This document shows, piece by piece, positions 675-7,661 of a stretch of 7,661 bases of DNA. The notes below the pieces were generated by a model. The model was not told the DNA's origin and ran no database searches. It was given only the letters and a program-made list of their open reading frames with translations. Made by a program: the position numbers and the translations under genes. Every line of letters begins with the position of its first letter. Position 1 is the stretch's first letter. Source of the stretch: Anaerolineales bacterium (GTDB taxonomy: Bacteria > Chloroflexota > Anaerolineae > Promineifilales > Promineifilaceae); assembly GCA_020432595.1 (NCBI GenBank), contig JAGQGA010000247.1, positions 1-7,661 of the forward strand, written 5' to 3'.

Positions 675-1031
675 TCAAACGGCTTCGCGTCTGCCCAAAC
701 TCTCTGCCAAAATAGAAGTCACCAGAGAATTCATGCTAACACCTTCTTGTTTTGCCCGCATTACTAAACGGGCATGAATACTTTTGGGAACTCGTTGAAT
801 GAACTTGCCGCTATAACTGCCTTCGCTGCCCGGTTCTGGAACGGGCATGTTCAGGCTTTCTAAAGCGGCAATCGTTTCCTGCAAAGCATCCATGCCATTT
901 TCAATGGCTTCCGCTATCGTGTTGCCATCTGAAATACACTCGGAAAAGTCAGGGAAAGAAATTAAATATCCGCCACCATCTTCTTCTGAAAGAGGGCGAA
1001 TCTCGAACGGGTATTGACTTAAATTTTTCAT
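675..1031 (-). CDS. hicB: HicB-family antitoxin
   Basis: This 118-residue protein should bind and neutralise the HicA mRNA interferase and repress the operon. Residues 7-66 form the HicB partial RNase-H-like fold: YPFEIRPLSEEDGGGYLISF, then FPDF, then a GNTIAEAIENGMDAL helix. Residues 76-113 look like a ribbon-helix-helix DNA-binding domain (GKFIQRVPKSIHARL, then a GVSMNSLV helix). The two-domain form with a C-terminal DNA-binding domain is typical of autoregulating HicB proteins. It starts with ATG at 1031, three bases after the hicA stop, so the two are co-transcribed and probably translationally coupled. The TGA stop (675-677) lies 20 bases from the truncated uvrB fragment. Codon use is less G-rich than in uvrB, consistent with acquisition. 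Confidence 0.9.
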   Translation of the reverse strand: MKNLSQYPFEIRPLSEEDGGGYLISFPDFSECISDGNTIAEAIENGMDALQETIAALESLNMPVPEPGSEGSYSGKFIQRVPKSIHARLVMRAKQEGVSMNSLVTSILAESLGRREAV

Positions 1032-1478: not shown

Positions 1479-3464
1479 ATGACACAATTTGAGCTAGTGG
1501 CCGATTATGTGCCGATGGGCGACCAGCCGCAGGCGATTGCGGAGCTGGTGGCGGGGGTAGATGGCGGGGAGCGGCGGCAGGTGCTGCTGGGGGCGACGGG
1601 GACGGGTAAGACGTTTACGATGGCGAATGTGATTGCCCAGACGCAGCGGCCAACGCTGGTGCTGGTGCACAACAAAACGCTGGCGGCGCAGCTTTACGCC
1701 GAGTTCAAGCGGTTTTTTCCCCACAACGCCGTCGCCTACTACGTCAGCTATTACGATTATTACCAGCCGGAAGCGTATGTGCCGCGCACCGACACCTATA
1801 TTGAAAAGACCACCGACATCAACGAAGAGATTGAACGGATGCGCCACGTGGCGACGAATGCGTTGGCGACGCGGCGGGATGTGATTGTGGTTGCCAGCGT
1901 CAGCGCCATTTATGCGCTGGGCGACCCGGAAACGTATGGGCAGGCGTTTGTGCAGTTTGTGGTGGGGGAGATGAAGCAGCGGCAGCGGGTGCTGCGGCGG
2001 CTGGTGGATATTTATTATGAGCGCAATGAGCTGAATTTGAAGCATGGGACGTTTCGCGTGCGGGGCGATGTGCTGGAAGTGCGGCCGCCGCACGGGGATG
2101 ATGTGTACCGGGTGGAGTTTTGGGGGGATGTAGTGGAGCGGATTAGCGAACTGGATGCGCTGACGGGGGAGGTGAAGCGGGAGCTACAGGAGCTAACGAT
2201 TCGCACGGCACGCCATTTTGTGCTGCCGCAGGAAGAGATGGAGGGTTCGATTGCGCGGATTGAGGCGGAGTTGGCGGAGCGGTTGGCGGAGTTGGAAGGG
2301 CAGAAGCGGCTGCTGGAAGCACAGCGATTGGCGCAGCGGACGCGGTATGATATTGAGATGCTGCGGGAGCTGGGGTATTGCAGCGGCAGCGAAAATTATT
2401 CGCGCCACTTTTATGACAAGCCGGCCGGAACGCCCCCCTGGACGCTGCTCGACTACTTTCCCGATGATTTTTTGACGATGGTAGACGAAAGTCACATGAC
2501 GCTGCCGCAAATTCGGGCGATGTTTCGCGGGGACAGGCAGCGCAAGGAGACGCTGGTGGAACACGGCTTCCGGCTGCCGAGTGCGCTGGATAATCGGCCG
2601 TTGACCTTTGCCGAGTGGGAGGACAGGGTGGGGCAGATGGTGTTTGTGTCGGCGACGCCAGGGGGGTATGAAACGGCCGTTTCCAGCCATATCGCCGAGC
2701 AAATCATCCGCCCCACCGGGCTGGTTGACCCCGACGTGGTGGTGCGCCCCACCGCCGGGCAAATTGACGACCTGCTGCTTGAACTGCGGCAGCGGGCGGC
2801 GCGGGGGGAACGGGCGCTGGTGACGACGCTGACCAAGCGCATGGCCGAGCAGTTGGCCGATTATCTGGCGGAAATGGGGCTGAAGGTGCAATATTTGCAC
2901 AGTGAGATTGATACTTTTGAGCGGGTGGAGATTTTGCACGATTTGCGGGCGGGGGTGTATGATGCCGTGGTGGGGATTAACCTGCTGCGCGAAGGGCTGG
3001 ATTTGCCGGAAGTGTCGCTGGTGGCGATTTTGGATGCGGACAAGGAGGGGTTTTTGCGCTCCGACACGGCGTTGATTCAGACGATTGGGCGGGCGGCGCG
3101 GCATGTGGCGGGGCGGGTGGTGATGTATGCCGACCGGGTGACGGATTCGATGCAGCGGGCGATTGACGAGACGAACCGGCGGCGGGCGAAGCAGGTGGCG
3201 TATAACGAGGCGCATGGCATTGTGCCGCAGTCGGTGCAAAAAGAGGTGGGGGAACGGCTGCGGCAGTGGGCGGCGGATGGGGATGTGGGGGGATTAACGG
3301 CCGTTGCTGAACCTACCCCCATCTACGAAACCAGCGACCTGCACGCTGAGATGGTGGCACTGGAGGCGGCCATGTTGGCGGCGGCGCAAAAGCTTGAGTT
3401 TGAAAAGGCGGCGCAATTGCGGGATAAAATGATGGCGATACGCGGCCAGCTTGTTTTGGTATAG
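1479..3464 (+). CDS. uvrB: UvrABC excinuclease subunit B
   Basis: UvrB is the damage-verifying helicase-like subunit of nucleotide excision repair. It is loaded by UvrA and recruits the nuclease UvrC. The protein has 661 residues, a normal length. Walker A is GATGTGKT (38-45). The beta-hairpin that inserts between DNA strands is at about 88-115 ([20 protein letters not shown]). The Walker B-like DESH is at 336-339, SAT at 391-393 and the motif VI region QTIGRAAR at 534-541. The C-terminal UVR coiled-coil motif that binds UvrC is at about 621-656 ([13 protein letters not shown]). All key motifs are present. Codons end mostly in G, with two sharp C-rich patches starting at the palindromes at 2671 and 3296. 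The upstream region carries an operator-like dyad and a heptamer hairpin. A DinB-like gene follows 29 nt downstream. Confidence 0.98.
2671..2682. repeat. AAACGGCCGTTT palindrome, copy 1
   Basis: This exact 12-base palindrome lies in uvrB and is read as (E)-T-A-V at residues 398-401, a position where UvrB families vary. The 60 bases before it hold 31 G and 9 C; the 60 after hold 17 G and 23 C. Confidence 0.9.
3296..3305. repeat. AACGGCCGTT core palindrome, copy 2 (10 bases)
   Basis: This is the core of the same palindrome without the outer A/T pair. It lies in uvrB in the linker before the UVR motif and is read T-A-V. The 60 bases before hold 33 G and 7 C; the 60 after hold 16 G and 20 C. Confidence 0.75.
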
Positions 3465-3493
3465 AGTGGGGATGGTTGGAAAAAGGATTTATG

Positions 3494-4057
3494 ATGTTAA
3501 TAAAAGAAGAATCTCTGACAGCTATTTTTGAAGGATGGAATGGGTATCATCAGAGCATTGTCAATGCCGTGGAGCCATTGACGCGGGAACAGCTTGTATG
3601 GCGGCCGGCGCAAAACTTTCACTCGGTGGGGGGACTGGCTCGTCATATCAGCCTGGGGCGGCTAACGTGGTTGACACGTATGGCGGCACCGGGCAGTGCG
3701 GCGGTGGCGGCGCAAATCAGCGATTGGGTGGCTGATGACGATGGCAACCGGGACATTGTCGAGGAATCCATTGCCATTGTAGAGCAGCCAGCGGAGTTGG
3801 TGCGCTGGCTGAATTTGAGCTGGGGCATTGTTGAGCAAACGCTGACAGCCTGGGAGGTTCGTGACCTGTTTCAAACGTATCGGCATACGTGGAATGGGAA
3901 TGTGTATGCGGTGTCACGGCAGTGGACGCTGTGGCGCGTCATGAATCATGATCTCCATCATGGCGGCGAGCTTTCGCTGATGCTGGGTTTACAGGGGATT
4001 GAGGCGTTTGAACTGAGTGCGCTTTTTGGGCATATTATTTTGCCGTCCCTAGCTTAA
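3494..4057 (+). CDS. DinB/YfiT-like putative metalloenzyme
   Basis: This is a protein of 187 residues with the four-helix-bundle pattern of the DinB (YfiT) superfamily. That family includes thiol-dependent transferases and many stress proteins, and it is unrelated to DNA polymerase IV. The expected metal-binding histidines are visible: one in GGLARHISL (His51), and two or three in the C-terminal signature MNHDLHHGGELSLML (His152, His155, His156), corresponding to the usual HxxHHRGQ. The substrate is unknown. I chose ATG 3494 because AAGGA (3483-3487) lies 6 bases upstream. ATG 3491 is equally possible, and TTG 3476 is less likely. It lies 29 nt after uvrB on the same strand with no terminator between, so read-through from uvrB is likely. 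Confidence 0.82.
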   Translation: MLIKEESLTAIFEGWNGYHQSIVNAVEPLTREQLVWRPAQNFHSVGGLARHISLGRLTWLTRMAAPGSAAVAAQISDWVADDDGNRDIVEESIAIVEQPAELVRWLNLSWGIVEQTLTAWEVRDLFQTYRHTWNGNVYAVSRQWTLWRVMNHDLHHGGELSLMLGLQGIEAFELSALFGHIILPSLA

Positions 4058-4082
4058 CTGATCTTGTGTAGCTTGCTTGTTT

Positions 4083-4111
4083 TTGACAACAACTATCGCT
4101 TGGAGTATATT
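4083..4111 (+). promoter_or_regulatory. near-consensus sigma-70 promoter
   Basis: A perfect TTGACA (4083-4088), a 17-base spacer and TATATT (4106-4111) form the strongest promoter in the window. Transcription would start near 4118, leaving a leader of about 130 nt before the gene at 4250. The leader (4118-4249) holds no recognised riboswitch. I see only a possible long-range pair, CTTGAA near 4154 with TTCAAG near 4208. Confidence 0.75.
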
Positions 4112-4249
4112 TTTTATGGTTTGAGCCTAGGTTAATCAAACTGTGTTTCGGGGTCTTGAATTTTCGATTTTGTAGTTCGACAATTTGATATGGCGAAGCG
4201 TTGAGAGTTCAAGGCTCTTTGGTGATCCTTTCTACCCACAGGAGGTTCT

Positions 4250-4615
4250 ATGAAAAATCCAACCGTTGTTCGCGTTACCACGCTTTCGGTCTTGACTTCT
4301 CTTGTAGATGGTCAAGCAACTTCTGACGAGCTGGATATTATGTCCCAAGAAATTTCATCGGTGTTTGGTGTGGCAGAGGATGAGGTGCGCGGATTTGCCC
4401 AGAAATTGATAGACGTTTATCAAAAAAAGAACATTGCGGCGAATCCGGTTGCCTTGGTGAAGCAGGGACAAAGTGCCCTAGGGTCGCTTAGTGGCTCTAA
4501 CCGCACCAAAACGATGGAAATTGCCCGGAAAGTTGCCAATAGCGGTGGTTTGGAAGCCAGCGAGGCGACCTTCCTAGACAATTTGGCACAATACGTCAAG
4601 CGTTATCGCCGTTGA
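4250..4615 (+). CDS. hypothetical small helical protein, possibly TerB-like
   Basis: I do not recognise this 121-residue protein with certainty. A strong AGGAGG (4240-4245) 4 bases before ATG supports the start. It has no signal peptide, membrane segment or cysteine and looks cytosolic and all-helical. The stretch DGQATSDELDIMSQEISSVF, followed by GVAEDEVRGFAQKLIDVY, resembles the 'DG.....E...' helix pairs of TerB-like proteins, and the GLEASEATFLDNLAQYVKR ending could be the last helix pair. That resemblance is weak, and I see no clear metal-ligand set. It is the first gene after the strong promoter, and the ferredoxin starts 65 nt downstream on the same strand, so the two probably share a transcript. 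The region is more AT-rich than uvrB. Confidence 0.75.
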   Translation: MKNPTVVRVTTLSVLTSLVDGQATSDELDIMSQEISSVFGVAEDEVRGFAQKLIDVYQKKNIAANPVALVKQGQSALGSLSGSNRTKTMEIARKVANSGGLEASEATFLDNLAQYVKRYRR

Positions 4616-4680
4616 GCCGAGATAGTGCATTTTGCATGATTTCCTGAACAATTTAAATCCATTGGGAGATACGACATACG

Positions 4681-4941
4681 ATGACACATATTATTACAAC
4701 GCTCTGTGTTGGGTGTAAAGACACAGCTTGTGTGGATGTTTGTCCGGTTGACTGTATTTATGGGGCCGATGAAGATTGGGAGCAACTGTATATTCAGCCT
4801 GAAGAGTGTATTGATTGCGGGTTATGCGTAGATGCTTGCCCTGTCGAAGCGATTTTTCCTGAGGAGGAAATGCCAGACCCGTTGAAAGCATCTATTGCGG
4901 TAAATTATGAGCACTTCGACCTTGAGCCACCAGATATTTAA
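4681..4941 (+). CDS. fdxA: FdxA-type seven-iron ferredoxin (3Fe-4S / 4Fe-4S)
   Basis: This is an 86-residue soluble electron carrier. The nine cysteines follow the spacing of Azotobacter ferredoxin I: Cys9, 12, 17, 21, 25, then 43, 46, 49 and 53. By that template Cys9, 17 and 53 would hold a 3Fe-4S cluster, Cys21, 43, 46 and 49 a 4Fe-4S cluster, and Cys12 and 25 would be free. The signatures CPVDC and CIDCGLCVDACP, and the following IFPEEEMP, match the family. It differs from the Azotobacter protein by a loop three residues longer between the clusters (GADEDWEQLYIQPEE) and by lacking the C-terminal tail of about 25 residues. A GGGAG lies 12 bases before the ATG, an unusually long spacing. A terminator follows. 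The redox partner is not shown by the neighbours. A 2[4Fe-4S] form cannot be excluded. Confidence 0.92.
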   Translation: MTHIITTLCVGCKDTACVDVCPVDCIYGADEDWEQLYIQPEECIDCGLCVDACPVEAIFPEEEMPDPLKASIAVNYEHFDLEPPDI

Positions 4942-4969
4942 TCGTCGTGCTGTTTAAGGCCTTCTTTGC

Positions 4970-5016
4970 AGAGCAGGTGTGGTGAGAGAAATTACCCCAT
5001 CTGCTCTTTTTATTTT
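4970..5016 (+). terminator. intrinsic terminator after the ferredoxin
   Basis: AGAGCAGGTG (4970-4979) pairs with CATCTGCTCT (4998-5007) over 10 base pairs with one G-U pair. A T-rich tract TTTTTATTTT follows immediately. It closes the 4250-4941 unit and separates it from the acyltransferase gene. Confidence 0.85.
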
Positions 5017-5085
5017 GTATAAGGTATGGTGATTGGCCGGGAAATATCAAAATAGTCAAATTAAACAGTAACTCTGGTTTCGTTG

Positions 5086-5091
5086 TATACT
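5086..5091 (+). promoter_or_regulatory. -10 box placed for a leaderless start
   Basis: TATACT ends 7 bases before ATG 5099, so transcription would begin at 5098 or 5099, at the start codon itself. No Shine-Dalgarno sequence is present. The -35 region (AAACAG, 5063-5068) is poor, so the promoter may be weak or activator-dependent. Confidence 0.45.
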
Positions 5092-5098
5092 TGTCCGC

Positions 5099-7661
5099 AT
5101 GGAAGAAGTATTAAACAGTCCCCATTTTCAAAAAGCCGTAGCCGAATTGGCGCACAGCCTCGGCAAATCAATTGAAAGCATCATGCCAGAGGTCGAAGAG
5201 TGCCTCAAGGAGATGTATGCCACCCACAACCCGCTGGGTGACTTTATTGGCATGGTCGGCAGCCAGTTTCTGGTGTCGCGTGGTTATGACCATGTGATTG
5301 ACGTAGATGCTGACCAACTGCGCCGCGTCGAAGAGCTGGTGCGAAGCCGTTCGGTGGCCTTTGTCATCACCCACAAAACCTACCTCGACACCTTTGTGCT
5401 GAGCGTGGTGCTGGGGCAAAACTACATGCCCATCCCCTACACCTTTGGCGGCATTAACATGAGCTTTATGGGGCTGGGGCAGTTGGGCCGGCAGGCAGGA
5501 GCCATTTTTATCCGCCGCTCGTTCAAAGACAATGACGTGTACAAAATGGTGCTGCGGCAATACATTGCCCATTTGGTGCGCCACAAAGCCAGCTTTATGT
5601 GGGCGTTGGAAGGAACGCGGTCGCGCACGGGCAAGCTGCTGTGGCCCAAGCTGGGGATTTTGAAGTATATGATGGAAGCGTCGCAGCAGTTGCGGCGCGA
5701 CAGCGTGCAATATGTCCCGGTTTCAATTGTCTATGACCTGATTCCCGACGTGCATTCGATGACGGCCGAGCGCACCGGCAGCGAGAAAAAGCCGGAGAGC
5801 CTGGGCTGGTTTGTCAACTACATTCGCAGCATGATGAGCGGTGATTATGGCCGGATTACGCTGCGTTTTGGCGAGCCGGTGACGCTGGCGGAAACGCCCA
5901 ACGTGCCAGAAGTAGATTTGGAAATTCAGGCGCGGTATTCATCCGACCAAATTGCGCTGCAGAAGCTGGCGTTTGAACTGGTGCACCAGATTAACTGCGC
6001 CACACCGGTGACAACGACCTCGCTGGTGTGTACGGCATTGTTGAGCAAGTTTGCCGCCAGCAAAGCTGAGATTGAGCGGGATGTGGCGCAATTGATGACG
6101 ATTGTGGCGCGGCGTGACCCCAAGGCAGTGCTGTCGCCGGAGGTGGTGCTGCGGGAGCGGGTGGGGCAGGCTTTGGAACTGCTGGTGAAGGACGGGGTGG
6201 TGGAGCGCAAGGGGATGGGGCTGGAGGTTCGGTACGCCATTCCGCCGGAAAGCTATCTCATGGCGGTGTATTACAGCAATATGGCGATTCATCATTTGGT
6301 GAACCATGCCTTTATTGAGCTGGCGCTGCTGCACGTGGCGGCGAAAGAACGGCCGAAACCGCTGCTATCGTTTTGGGCGGAAATGATGCGGCTGCGCGAC
6401 TTGTTTAAGTTTGAGTTTTACTACCCGACACGGCCGCAGTTTAGCGATGAGATTGAGGCGGAATTGGCGTTGATGGCTCCAGATTGGGAGGCACGGCTGG
6501 GAGAAACGGCCGTTTTGCAAACCCAACCCCTCTACGTTGCCCACGCCATCCTCGCGCCCTACATCGAAGCGTACCGCGTCGTTGCCTTTGCCTTGCAGCA
6601 GCGGCAGCCGGGCGAGCCGTCTGACGAAGAGAAATTTCTCCAGCACTGCATTGCGTTGGGCGAAGAGCTTCATTGGCAGGGGGAAGTGCAGCGGTTGGAA
6701 GCGATTTCGCGCCCGTTTTTGGTCAATGGCATCCATTTGGCGCGGAATCGGGGGCTGATTGACAATCCGCAGCCGCAGGCGATGACCAACTTCTTGCGTG
6801 AGTTGGACAAGATCGGCGGGCAGTTGCACACGCTGCAAAGCTGGACGCTGACGCGGGACAAGGCGCATTTGCCGCCACCGTCGCTGGCTGAGATTTTGCC
6901 GGAAACGGCCGTTTCAGAATCCGTTATCCAGGAAGTAATGGTCTCGCCCGAAGGTGCCCACATCGGCGCTTTCTTTGACCTGGATCGGACGCTTATCGAA
7001 GGGTTTTCCGCCAAGGAGTTTTTCCAGGAGCGGCTGTTTAGCCGCACCATGACCGCCCGTGAAGTGGTGTCACAGTTTGCCGGGGTGCTGGTCTACGCGA
7101 TTGGCAACCGCAACTTTGCCAGCCTGGCGGCGGTGAGTGCGCGGGGGGTCAGCGGCACGCCGGAGTCGGTCTTTATGGAGTTGGGGGAGGAGGTGTACCG
7201 CAAACATTTGGCGGACAAGATTTACCCGGAGGCGCGGGTGCTTGTGCAGGCGCATCTGGCGAAGGGGCATACGGTGGCGATTGTGTCGGCGGCGACGCGC
7301 TATCAGGTGGAGCCGGTGGCGCGGGAGTTGGCGATTCATGAGGTGATGTGTACGAGAATGGAGGTGAAAAACGGCCGTTTTACCGGCCAAATCATCCATC
7401 CACCCTGCTGGGGCGAAGGCAAAGCCTACGCCGCCCGCCAGTTGGCCGAAACCCACAGCTTGGATCTGGCTCAAAGCTACTTCTACACCGACAGTGCCGA
7501 AGATTTGCCGCTGCTGGAAATCGTCGGCAAGCCACGCCCGCTGAACCCCGATGCCGAACTGGACAAAATTGCTCTGGAGCGCGACTGGCCGATTCAACGG
7601 TTCCGCAGTGGGGCGCGCCCCGGCATGACCCATTTGGTGCGAACGGGGCTGGCCTTTGGCA
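5099..7661 (+). CDS. PlsB-like glycerol-3-phosphate acyltransferase fused to HAD-IB phosphatase (runs off the right edge)
   Basis: One frame stays open for 854 codons to the window edge. The N-terminal half carries the glycerolipid acyltransferase blocks in order: HKTYLD (catalytic His92, Asp97), GAIFIRRSF (134-142), EGTRSRTGK (171-179) and VPVSIVYD (206-213). A GSEKKPES stretch and a C-terminal region (about 285-590) follow, like PlsB, which acylates glycerol-3-phosphate at the membrane surface. The second half is a HAD-IB phosphatase: FDLDRT (Asp627, Asp629), Ser730 in VAIVSAATR, Lys775 in GEGKAYAA, and TDSAEDLP (Asp798, Asp802). The residues after about 845 leave room for more, perhaps a PlsC domain. 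In Mycobacterium tuberculosis PlsB2 and a HAD-PlsC protein are separate neighbouring genes. The start is ATG 5099; no ribosome site is seen. The gene contains three copies of AAACGGCCGTTT. Confidence 0.9.
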   Translation, partial: MEEVLNSPHFQKAVAELAHSLGKSIESIMPEVEECLKEMYATHNPLGDFIGMVGSQFLVSRGYDHVIDVDADQLRRVEELVRSRSVAFVITHKTYLDTFVLSVVLGQNYMPIPYTFGGINMSFMGLGQLGRQAGAIFIRRSFKDNDVYKMVLRQYIAHLVRHKASFMWALEGTRSRTGKLLWPKLGILKYMMEASQQLRRDSVQYVPVSIVYDLIPDVHSMTAERTGSEKKPESLGWFVNYIRSMMSGDYGRITLRFGEPVTLAETPNVPEVDLEIQARYSSDQIALQKLAFELVHQINCATPVTTTSLVCTALLSKFAASKAEIERDVAQLMTIVARRDPKAVLSPEVVLRERVGQALELLVKDGVVERKGMGLEVRYAIPPESYLMAVYYSNMAIHHLVNHAFIELALLHVAAKERPKPLLSFWAEMMRLRDLFKFEFYYPTRPQFSDEIEAELALMAPDWEARLGETAVLQTQPLYVAHAILAPYIEAYRVVAFALQQRQPGEPSDEEKFLQHCIALGEELHWQGEVQRLEAISRPFLVNGIHLARNRGLIDNPQPQAMTNFLRELDKIGGQLHTLQSWTLTRDKAHLPPPSLAEILPETAVSESVIQEVMVSPEGAHIGAFFDLDRTLIEGFSAKEFFQERLFSRTMTAREVVSQFAGVLVYAIGNRNFASLAAVSARGVSGTPESVFMELGEEVYRKHLADKIYPEARVLVQAHLAKGHTVAIVSAATRYQVEPVARELAIHEVMCTRMEVKNGRFTGQIIHPPCWGEGKAYAARQLAETHSLDLAQSYFYTDSAEDLPLLEIVGKPRPLNPDAELDKIALERDWPIQRFRSGARPGMTHLVRTGLAFG
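6504..6515. repeat. AAACGGCCGTTT palindrome, copy 3
   Basis: An exact 12-base copy in the acyltransferase half, read E-T-A-V near residue 469. The 60 bases before hold 27 G and 9 C; the 60 after hold 9 G and 28 C, the cleanest reversal in the window. Confidence 0.9.
6903..6914. repeat. AAACGGCCGTTT palindrome, copy 4
   Basis: An exact copy read E-T-A-V near residues 602-605, in the linker between the acyltransferase and HAD domains. The skew change is weak here: 22 G and 18 C before, 15 G and 18 C after. Confidence 0.88.
7368..7381. repeat. AAAACGGCCGTTTT palindrome, copy 5 (14 bases)
   Basis: The 12-base core (7369-7380) is extended by one pair on each side. It lies in the HAD domain and is read in a different phase, as K-N-G-R-F. 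The 60 bases before the core hold 28 G and 7 C; the 60 after hold 14 G and 25 C. Confidence 0.9.

Follow-up and report, generated by a model that had tools for sequence, protein, structure and literature searches.

Why does one short palindrome stand, five times over, where a DNA strand changes from G-rich to C-rich sequence? The question is raised by a contig of an Anaerolineales bacterium (JAGQGA010000247.1), and the whole stretch analysed, 7,661 nucleotides, is referred to below as the window. AACGGCCGTT, a perfect palindrome, is found in it at 2672, 3296, 6505, 6904 and 7370; the expectation in 7661 bases is 0.01 copies, and none of 200 shuffles reached five. These copies (0.65 per kb) all lie inside genes, where four are read as ACG-GCC-GTT (T-A-V) and one as AAC-GGC-CGT (N-G-R).

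The palindromes and the genes that carry them

The window encodes UvrB (1479-3464), a DinB-family protein (3476-4057), a 121-aa ORF with no Pfam match, a ferredoxin-like protein (4681-4941) and an acyltransferase/GPAT_C/HAD fusion that runs from 5099 to the end of the window (7660). Palindrome 1 (GAAACGGCCGTTTC, 2670..2683) encodes E-T-A-V-S in uvrB and separates a left flank of G/T-ending codons (2617..2669, plus strand, as are all the flanks given here) from a right flank (2684..2736) where A/C-ending codons cover conserved UvrB residues. Palindrome 2 (AACGGCCGTT, 3296..3305) encodes L-T-A-V-A in the UvrB linker, with G/T-ending codons on its left (3241..3295) and A/C-ending ones on its right (3306..3360). 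The acyltransferase-HAD gene carries palindrome 3 (AAACGGCCGTTT, 6504..6515, E-T-A-V), which is preceded by G/T-ending (6450..6503) and followed by A/C-ending codons (6516..6569). At palindrome 4 (GAAACGGCCGTTTC, 6902..6915, E-T-A-V-S), the left flank (6849..6901) is G/T-ending at synonymous sites, a feature unseen in raw base counts, and the right flank (6916..6968) is A/C-ending. Palindrome 5 (AAAACGGCCGTTTT, 7368..7381) is read in the other frame, as N-G-R-F, and lies between G/T-ending (7315..7367) and A/C-ending codons (7382..7434). The strong form of the switch thus comprises five sites, spread over two genes of a single contig.

Among the near relatives of UvrB, those that bear names are MAGs of Ardenticatenaceae and Anaerolineae; for the fusion protein, a relative at 55% identity carries the name Candidatus Promineifilaceae. 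Judged by protein similarity, a Chloroflexota host is therefore likely. T-A-V occurs 30 times in the 30 UvrB proteins nearest to that of the window versus twice in ranks 91-120. It is present at the linker, before the UVR domain, in 16 of the 30 nearest relatives (P0001-P0030), and at site 1 in three of the 30. On the basis of the linker T-A-V, the palindrome seems to influence protein sequence throughout the lineage. Site 3 of the fusion protein is present in a 95%-identical relative and absent from a 67%-identical one, which has site 4. Copies would therefore come and go, and such patchy sharing points to their gain and loss in evolution, with the proviso that protein letters do not prove a DNA palindrome.

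Other features of the window deserve mention. A direct repeat of about 90% identity (495-658 and 1350-1538) corresponds to the uvrB upstream region plus the first codons, and a HicB-like antitoxin gene (675-1031, minus strand) lies between its two copies; the arrangement suggests that a toxin-antitoxin cassette went into the start of uvrB and left a truncated duplicate behind. Immediately 5' of uvrB there is an inverted repeat (1405-1465; 27 nt, 93% complementary, 7-nt gap). Large skew or synonymous switches with no exact palindrome were observed near 642, 1690, 2383 and 6224, the first of them where the duplicated uvrB start ends. Close relatives of the acyltransferase-HAD fusion (5099-7660) are numerous in Saprospiraceae and other Bacteroidota, and a genome scan with the acyltransferase yielded 29 loci, most of them in Bacteroidota, so transfer of this gene between phyla is suggested.

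Size, shape and specificity of the switch

With 60-nt flanks, the four largest all-base G-to-C skew drops of the window (0.62, 0.62, 0.58 and 0.50; sd over window positions, 0.156) were those of four palindromes, and the palindrome at 6904 displayed an ordinary one (0.10, top 25%). The mean of the five was 0.467; random sets of five coding positions gave 0.000 ± 0.069 and did not reach the palindrome mean in any of 200,000 trials. Among 6121 circular shifts, the unshifted palindrome set alone reached its own mean. Other flank settings were weaker and, with flanks of 8-110 nt, 8 of the 6121 circular shifts reached the palindrome value. That the palindromes sit where the strand changes from G-rich to C-rich, as the first-pass annotation had claimed, is confirmed here, and the coincidence is stronger than had been judged.

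For the main score we used only synonymous third positions and took keto (G/T-ending) minus amino (A/C-ending) codons over 7-60 nt on each side. At the palindrome centres this score was 20, 16, 20, 23 and 28 for sites 1 to 5 (sd 7.2). The five top local maxima in coding DNA were at 7376, 6909, 6508, 2677 and 3286 (28, 23, 21, 20 and 19, respectively), and the next one after the palindrome five was 16. None of 1,000,000 random five-site sums reached the palindrome sum in any of the three scores tried, a figure that serves as a guide and not as an exact p, since neighbouring positions are correlated. When G minus C was scored over all synonymous codons, the palindromes were five of the top six, with a palindrome-free place near 1699 ranking second, above four of them; with fourfold codons only, that same place tied for top rank. 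The site at 6903, which had been considered weak, ranks second on synonymous positions once amino-acid content is removed.

The bases involved were the following. At fourfold sites 9-60 nt upstream of the palindromes, C was found in 0 of 44, and 9-24 nt downstream there were nine C, no G and two T. Over 7-60 nt, NNY codons ended in C in 2 of 10 cases upstream versus 13 of 15 downstream, NNR codons ended in G in 18 of 22 versus 3 of 15, and Ile was ATT in all three upstream codons versus ATC in all ten downstream. The change from G-ending to C-ending codons noted previously is therefore real but broader than described: two-fold codons and Ile also switch, so that it runs from G/T to A/C and not from G to C alone. 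Codon position 3 dominated (8.2 ± 0.5, versus 3.2 ± 1.5 for position 1 and 0.6 ± 1.0 for position 2, at 9-30 nt), and every site was marked on both sides of the palindrome. The per-codon difference stayed between 1.05 and 1.39 out to 60 nt and was 0.38 at 60-75 nt. The fall near 60 nt is steep, and the return to G-rich sequence takes place without a palindrome, as remarked earlier.

Several trivial sources of the signal were considered. In the window, neither 28 codon-pair-matched control sites nor the one-mismatch palindrome site at 2598 displayed a switch, and on the flat codon-pair-matched controls we rejected a codon-pair or patch artefact. Selection for an RNA or DNA hairpin was rejected on the folding of 10 strands (z from -1.73 to +0.60, RNA energies only). 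By this measure the palindromes did not fold more stably than shuffles, as an RNA hairpin or terminator would, and symmetric flank positions showed no excess complementarity over shifted ones. A longer hidden inverted repeat was also discarded: some flanks are alike, but they have no common half-site past the 16-bp consensus. Nor does any palindrome suffice, as z=3 was passed by 1 of 42 six-base palindromes in the cyanobacterial set described below and by none of 30 in the virus records; the sole one with z>3 was CGATCG, that is, the HIP1 core outside HIP1. Among the controls run, the two-sided switch is specific to the iterated palindrome.

Recurrence in virus records and at HIP1

IMG/VR contigs with AACGGCCGTT were found by pattern, and 20 of them (619,409 bases) were used. 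They hold 341 copies versus 2.44 expected, a figure to be read for records selected for carrying the palindrome, and their symmetrised consensus is GGAAACGGCCGTTTCC. We left out L050, L068, L055 and L051, which have stretches in common with other records, L166, which is part of G019, and G025 and G026, with three and two copies. Also unused were G006 and G008 (the records of L051 and L055), G012, which repeats the spacings of G010, and G014-G018 and G001, with one or no copies. G002, G004 and G007 were kept despite some common 31-mers, and the records are therefore not fully independent. Phage portal, terminase or capsid genes were present in both records checked (G019, through L166, and L183). 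Of 24 uvrB loci in viral contigs, none carried AACGGCCGTT. In G013 (L145-L149, 92206-96526) the palindromes are clustered, with four in 180 bases and pairs 22 bases apart. Near-identical SPPY-type methyltransferase-like proteins are encoded in two palindrome-rich records (G004, 47547-48800; G009, 12567-13475); the one protein scanned gave weak family matches, and we consider it a putative methyltransferase.

A first all-base pass over the virus records gave a weak signal, due largely to the palindrome's own GG...CC extension. With counts begun 7 nt from the centre, which therefore include part of that extension, 18 of the 20 records were positive; later counts begin at 9 nt, and z=4.1 remained when they were begun at 12 nt. 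At exact copies, the genic synonymous G-minus-C switch over 9-24 nt was 0.80 ± 0.16 (n=241, 20 records); it fell to 0.47 ± 0.12 (n=463) for a single mismatch, 0.29 ± 0.10 (n=718) for two and -0.06 ± 0.06 (n=2237) for three. The switch of the virus records is thus weaker than that of the window, has the same polarity and is graded by motif match. A within-gene, same-frame permutation at fourfold sites yielded z=5.05 (n=261). An equal change at matched control positions, which the first-pass annotation had named as evidence against a role of the palindrome, was absent in these records from codon-pair-matched sites (-0.05 ± 0.04, n=2404) and from GGCC, and CGGCCG-only sites gave +0.07 to +0.28. 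An intermediate switch (3.33 ± 0.62, n=12) was found in G019, the codons of which are as G-ending as those of the window. In these records, the fourfold statistic of L183 (n=14) was null, and 12-bp palindromes over 9-60 nt (n=58) and frame-1 sites (n=28) gave null or contrary results. Intergenic copies agreed weakly over 9-62 nt (0.044 ± 0.016 per base; n=79), but a stricter set yielded 0.39 ± 0.58 over 9-30 nt (n=54).

The five palindromes of the window all lie in plus-strand genes, and the earlier worry was that gene direction and replication direction could not be told apart there. In record coordinates, the virus records gave 1.35 ± 0.42 in plus-strand genes (n=144) and 1.76 ± 0.43 in minus-strand ones (n=119). 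The sign is equal on both gene strands, and gene direction does not orient the switch because the pattern is symmetric about the palindrome's centre.

We extended the analysis to HIP1 (GCGATCGC) in nine cyanobacterial plasmids, comprising the whole of pAQ7, 50 kb each of pSYSM and pANACY.01 and 200 kb from each of six others. The pooled genic switch over 9-60 nt was 0.97 ± 0.14 (n=924), while on the same plasmids other GATC gave 0.14 ± 0.07 (n=4108) and codon-matched sites 0.09 ± 0.05 (n=5889). It was positive on eight of the nine plasmids (pSYSM, -0.32 ± 0.63) and peaked at 9-30 nt. On pAQ7, fourfold sites had given 0.41 ± 0.17 for GGCGATCGCC and 0.00 ± 0.20 for other HIP1, and the all-synonymous statistic z=4.3; since this statistic was chosen on pAQ7, the other eight plasmids are the fair test and, with the statistic fixed, they gave 0.90 ± 0.16 (n=702). 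An early test on the 50 kb of pANACY.01 was weak. CGATCG outside HIP1 gave 0.63 (n=956, from 1306 such sites in all), so the HIP1 effect is graded too. Intergenic HIP1 agreed weakly (0.77 ± 0.38, versus -0.29 ± 0.18 for GATC, over 9-30 nt). The GATC of E. coli is a palindromic, iterated and methylation-directed nick site, the classical site of MutH mismatch repair, and over 9-60 nt in 100 kb of MG1655 it was flat (0.18 ± 0.26, n=317). The replications in virus records and at HIP1 are statistically solid but small.

What may act at the palindrome

At synonymous positions, each strand is C-poor for about 60 nt 5' of the palindrome and G-poor on its 3' side. In yeast, according to the accessible portion of PMC6786661, breaks resected 5'-to-3' in both directions carry mutations of C to their left and of G to their right. 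As the polarity is the same, we propose that the palindrome, as a HIP-like one, is the site of a strand nick or break processed outward 5'-to-3', a plausible explanation that we hold tentatively and in which we infer the cut, the enzyme and the chemistry. A nick or break there would leave the 5' flank of each strand as a 3'-ended single strand; alternatively, a degrading enzyme might halt at the palindrome from either side, in the manner of a two-way chi, or the 3' flank might be left for resynthesis. Recurrent damage to the exposed strand, or recurrent error-prone fill-in of a short patch, would create the bias over evolutionary time. The edge near 60 nt would then reflect the length of the patch, and it would be compatible with a footprint of fixed size or a brief run of a polymerase. 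The motif in virus records may fit chi-like protection or a common methylation mark. Plain cytosine deamination was rejected, since fourfold C gives way chiefly to G in the window and, in cyanobacteria, to G and A. A MutH-like nick alone is insufficient, as the flat GATC of E. coli indicates.

Of the interpretations offered in the first-pass annotation, a boundary of strand-biased mutation or repaired patches fits best with a switch that affects mainly position 3, recurs elsewhere, is graded by motif and is independent of gene strand. Copying from the other strand fits poorly, in that after site 1 UvrB retains its conserved residues and only their codons are changed. These residues (QIIRPTGL) are common or nearly so to the 30 nearest UvrB relatives shown, the majority of them without ETAV at that position; the C-ending patch is therefore a synonymous change on conserved sequence and not an insert.

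The weaker signature of the same kind at HIP1 suggests that highly iterated palindromes share this trait in general. It is possible, although we put it forward with some doubt, that HIPs of unrelated phyla serve as programmed DNA end sites and act as a two-way chi, with the strands opened, a patch of tens of bases rebuilt and a lasting two-sided strand signature left in the nearby codons. If true, this would offer a direct mechanistic handle on HIP1, which has been without settled function since 1995, and synonymous codons near such motifs would be set by DNA transactions and not by translation. A strand-polar scar at two unrelated motifs points to an activity on both strands, of definite direction and reach, and it turns a statistical oddity into testable predictions about ends or nicks at HIPs, patch length, mutation polarity and loss of the pattern in exonuclease mutants.

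The steep edge of the window plateau near 60 nt is also what a protein footprint would give. A symmetric complex bound at the palindrome, contacting or loading onto about 60 bp on each side and preferring the G-rich strand toward the centre, could tune synonymous sites by selection, and all codon classes follow the switch. We find this rather unlikely, however, as the flanks show no common half-site outside the 16-bp consensus and both reach and size of the switch vary widely among the window, the virus records and HIP1. Methyl-directed mismatch repair, in which the palindrome would be methylated and nicked when hemimethylated, with excision from the nick creating the bias, has a precedent in what Elhai proposes for HIPs. 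As far as the accessible text of Elhai (PMC4390886) goes, HIP abundance tracks matching methyltransferases in cyanobacteria, and HIPs are proposed to be methylated and nicked while hemimethylated by a postulated HIP-directed nicking enzyme. The SPPY-type methyltransferase-like proteins of two virus records also agree with such repair, but the flat E. coli GATC (0.18 ± 0.26, n=317) makes it distinctly improbable.

Less probable still is a roadblock, that is, a protein bound at the palindrome that halts replication or transcription, so that one strand is exposed alongside. At stalled forks the lagging template is exposed on the approach side, and this gives the right sign there; however, a single approach direction would leave a one-sided mark, while the sites of the window are two-sided and gene strand is irrelevant. 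We give hardly any credence to recombination patches, with the palindrome as a crossover joining pieces of differing codon style: iterated palindromes have been tied to site-specific recombination (work cited in the accessible part of PMC4390886) and palindrome 3 stands at a stretch shorter than in most homologues shown, but imports predict both orders, and all five sites have one order here, with the same mean sign elsewhere. Coincidence, or a compositional artefact in a genome made of patches, with palindromes placed between G-ending and C-ending codons at patch borders, is largely refuted and, despite the large palindrome-free switches near 1690 and 2383, next to incredible in view of the flat codon-pair-matched sites, the flat one-mismatch site at 2598 and the equally strong switch at the other-frame palindrome at 7370.

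Comparison with known systems helps to place AACGGCCGTT. Chi, the RecBCD/AddAB site, is an abundant short motif as well, but it is non-palindromic and one-way. A halt of degradation at Chi leaves the strands on its 5' side as 3'-ended single strand; a two-way version would give the geometry found here, and AACGGCCGTT differs from Chi in being a perfect palindrome. GATC with MutH is similarly palindromic and iterated, but has no strand switch in the 100 kb of E. coli MG1655 measured. The yeast clusters at resected breaks, as the accessible part of PMC6786661 presents them, are like the window in that the affected base is C to the left of the centre and G to its right; they differ in involving an APOBEC deaminase, tracts of many kb and random breaks, whereas here there is a fixed palindrome, about 60 nt and evolutionary time. 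The methylated motifs given for lake Chloroflexi in the accessible part of PMC6329791 are GANTC, TTAA and GCWGC. In the open-access literature, to which the search was confined, we found no mention of AACGGCCGTT as an iterated palindrome or of skewed HIP flanks. The closest likeness is to cyanobacterial HIP1, described in 1995 and of little known significance (as cited in the accessible part of PMC4390886). HIP1 (treated together with alternate HIPs in Elhai 2015, same portion) is also an over-represented palindrome with a GC-rich core, mostly genic and at about one copy per kb, and the polarity of its synonymous flank switch, measured here, is the same. The two differ in sequence and phylum, in the reach of the switch (60 nt in the window versus about 30 nt at HIP1) and in its amplitude, about 19 to 21 per site in the window and some 20 times that of HIP1. 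Far above chance, near one per kb in genes and flanked by a synonymous strand switch, a trait that we propose here as a mark of the class, AACGGCCGTT is in these respects like a HIP.
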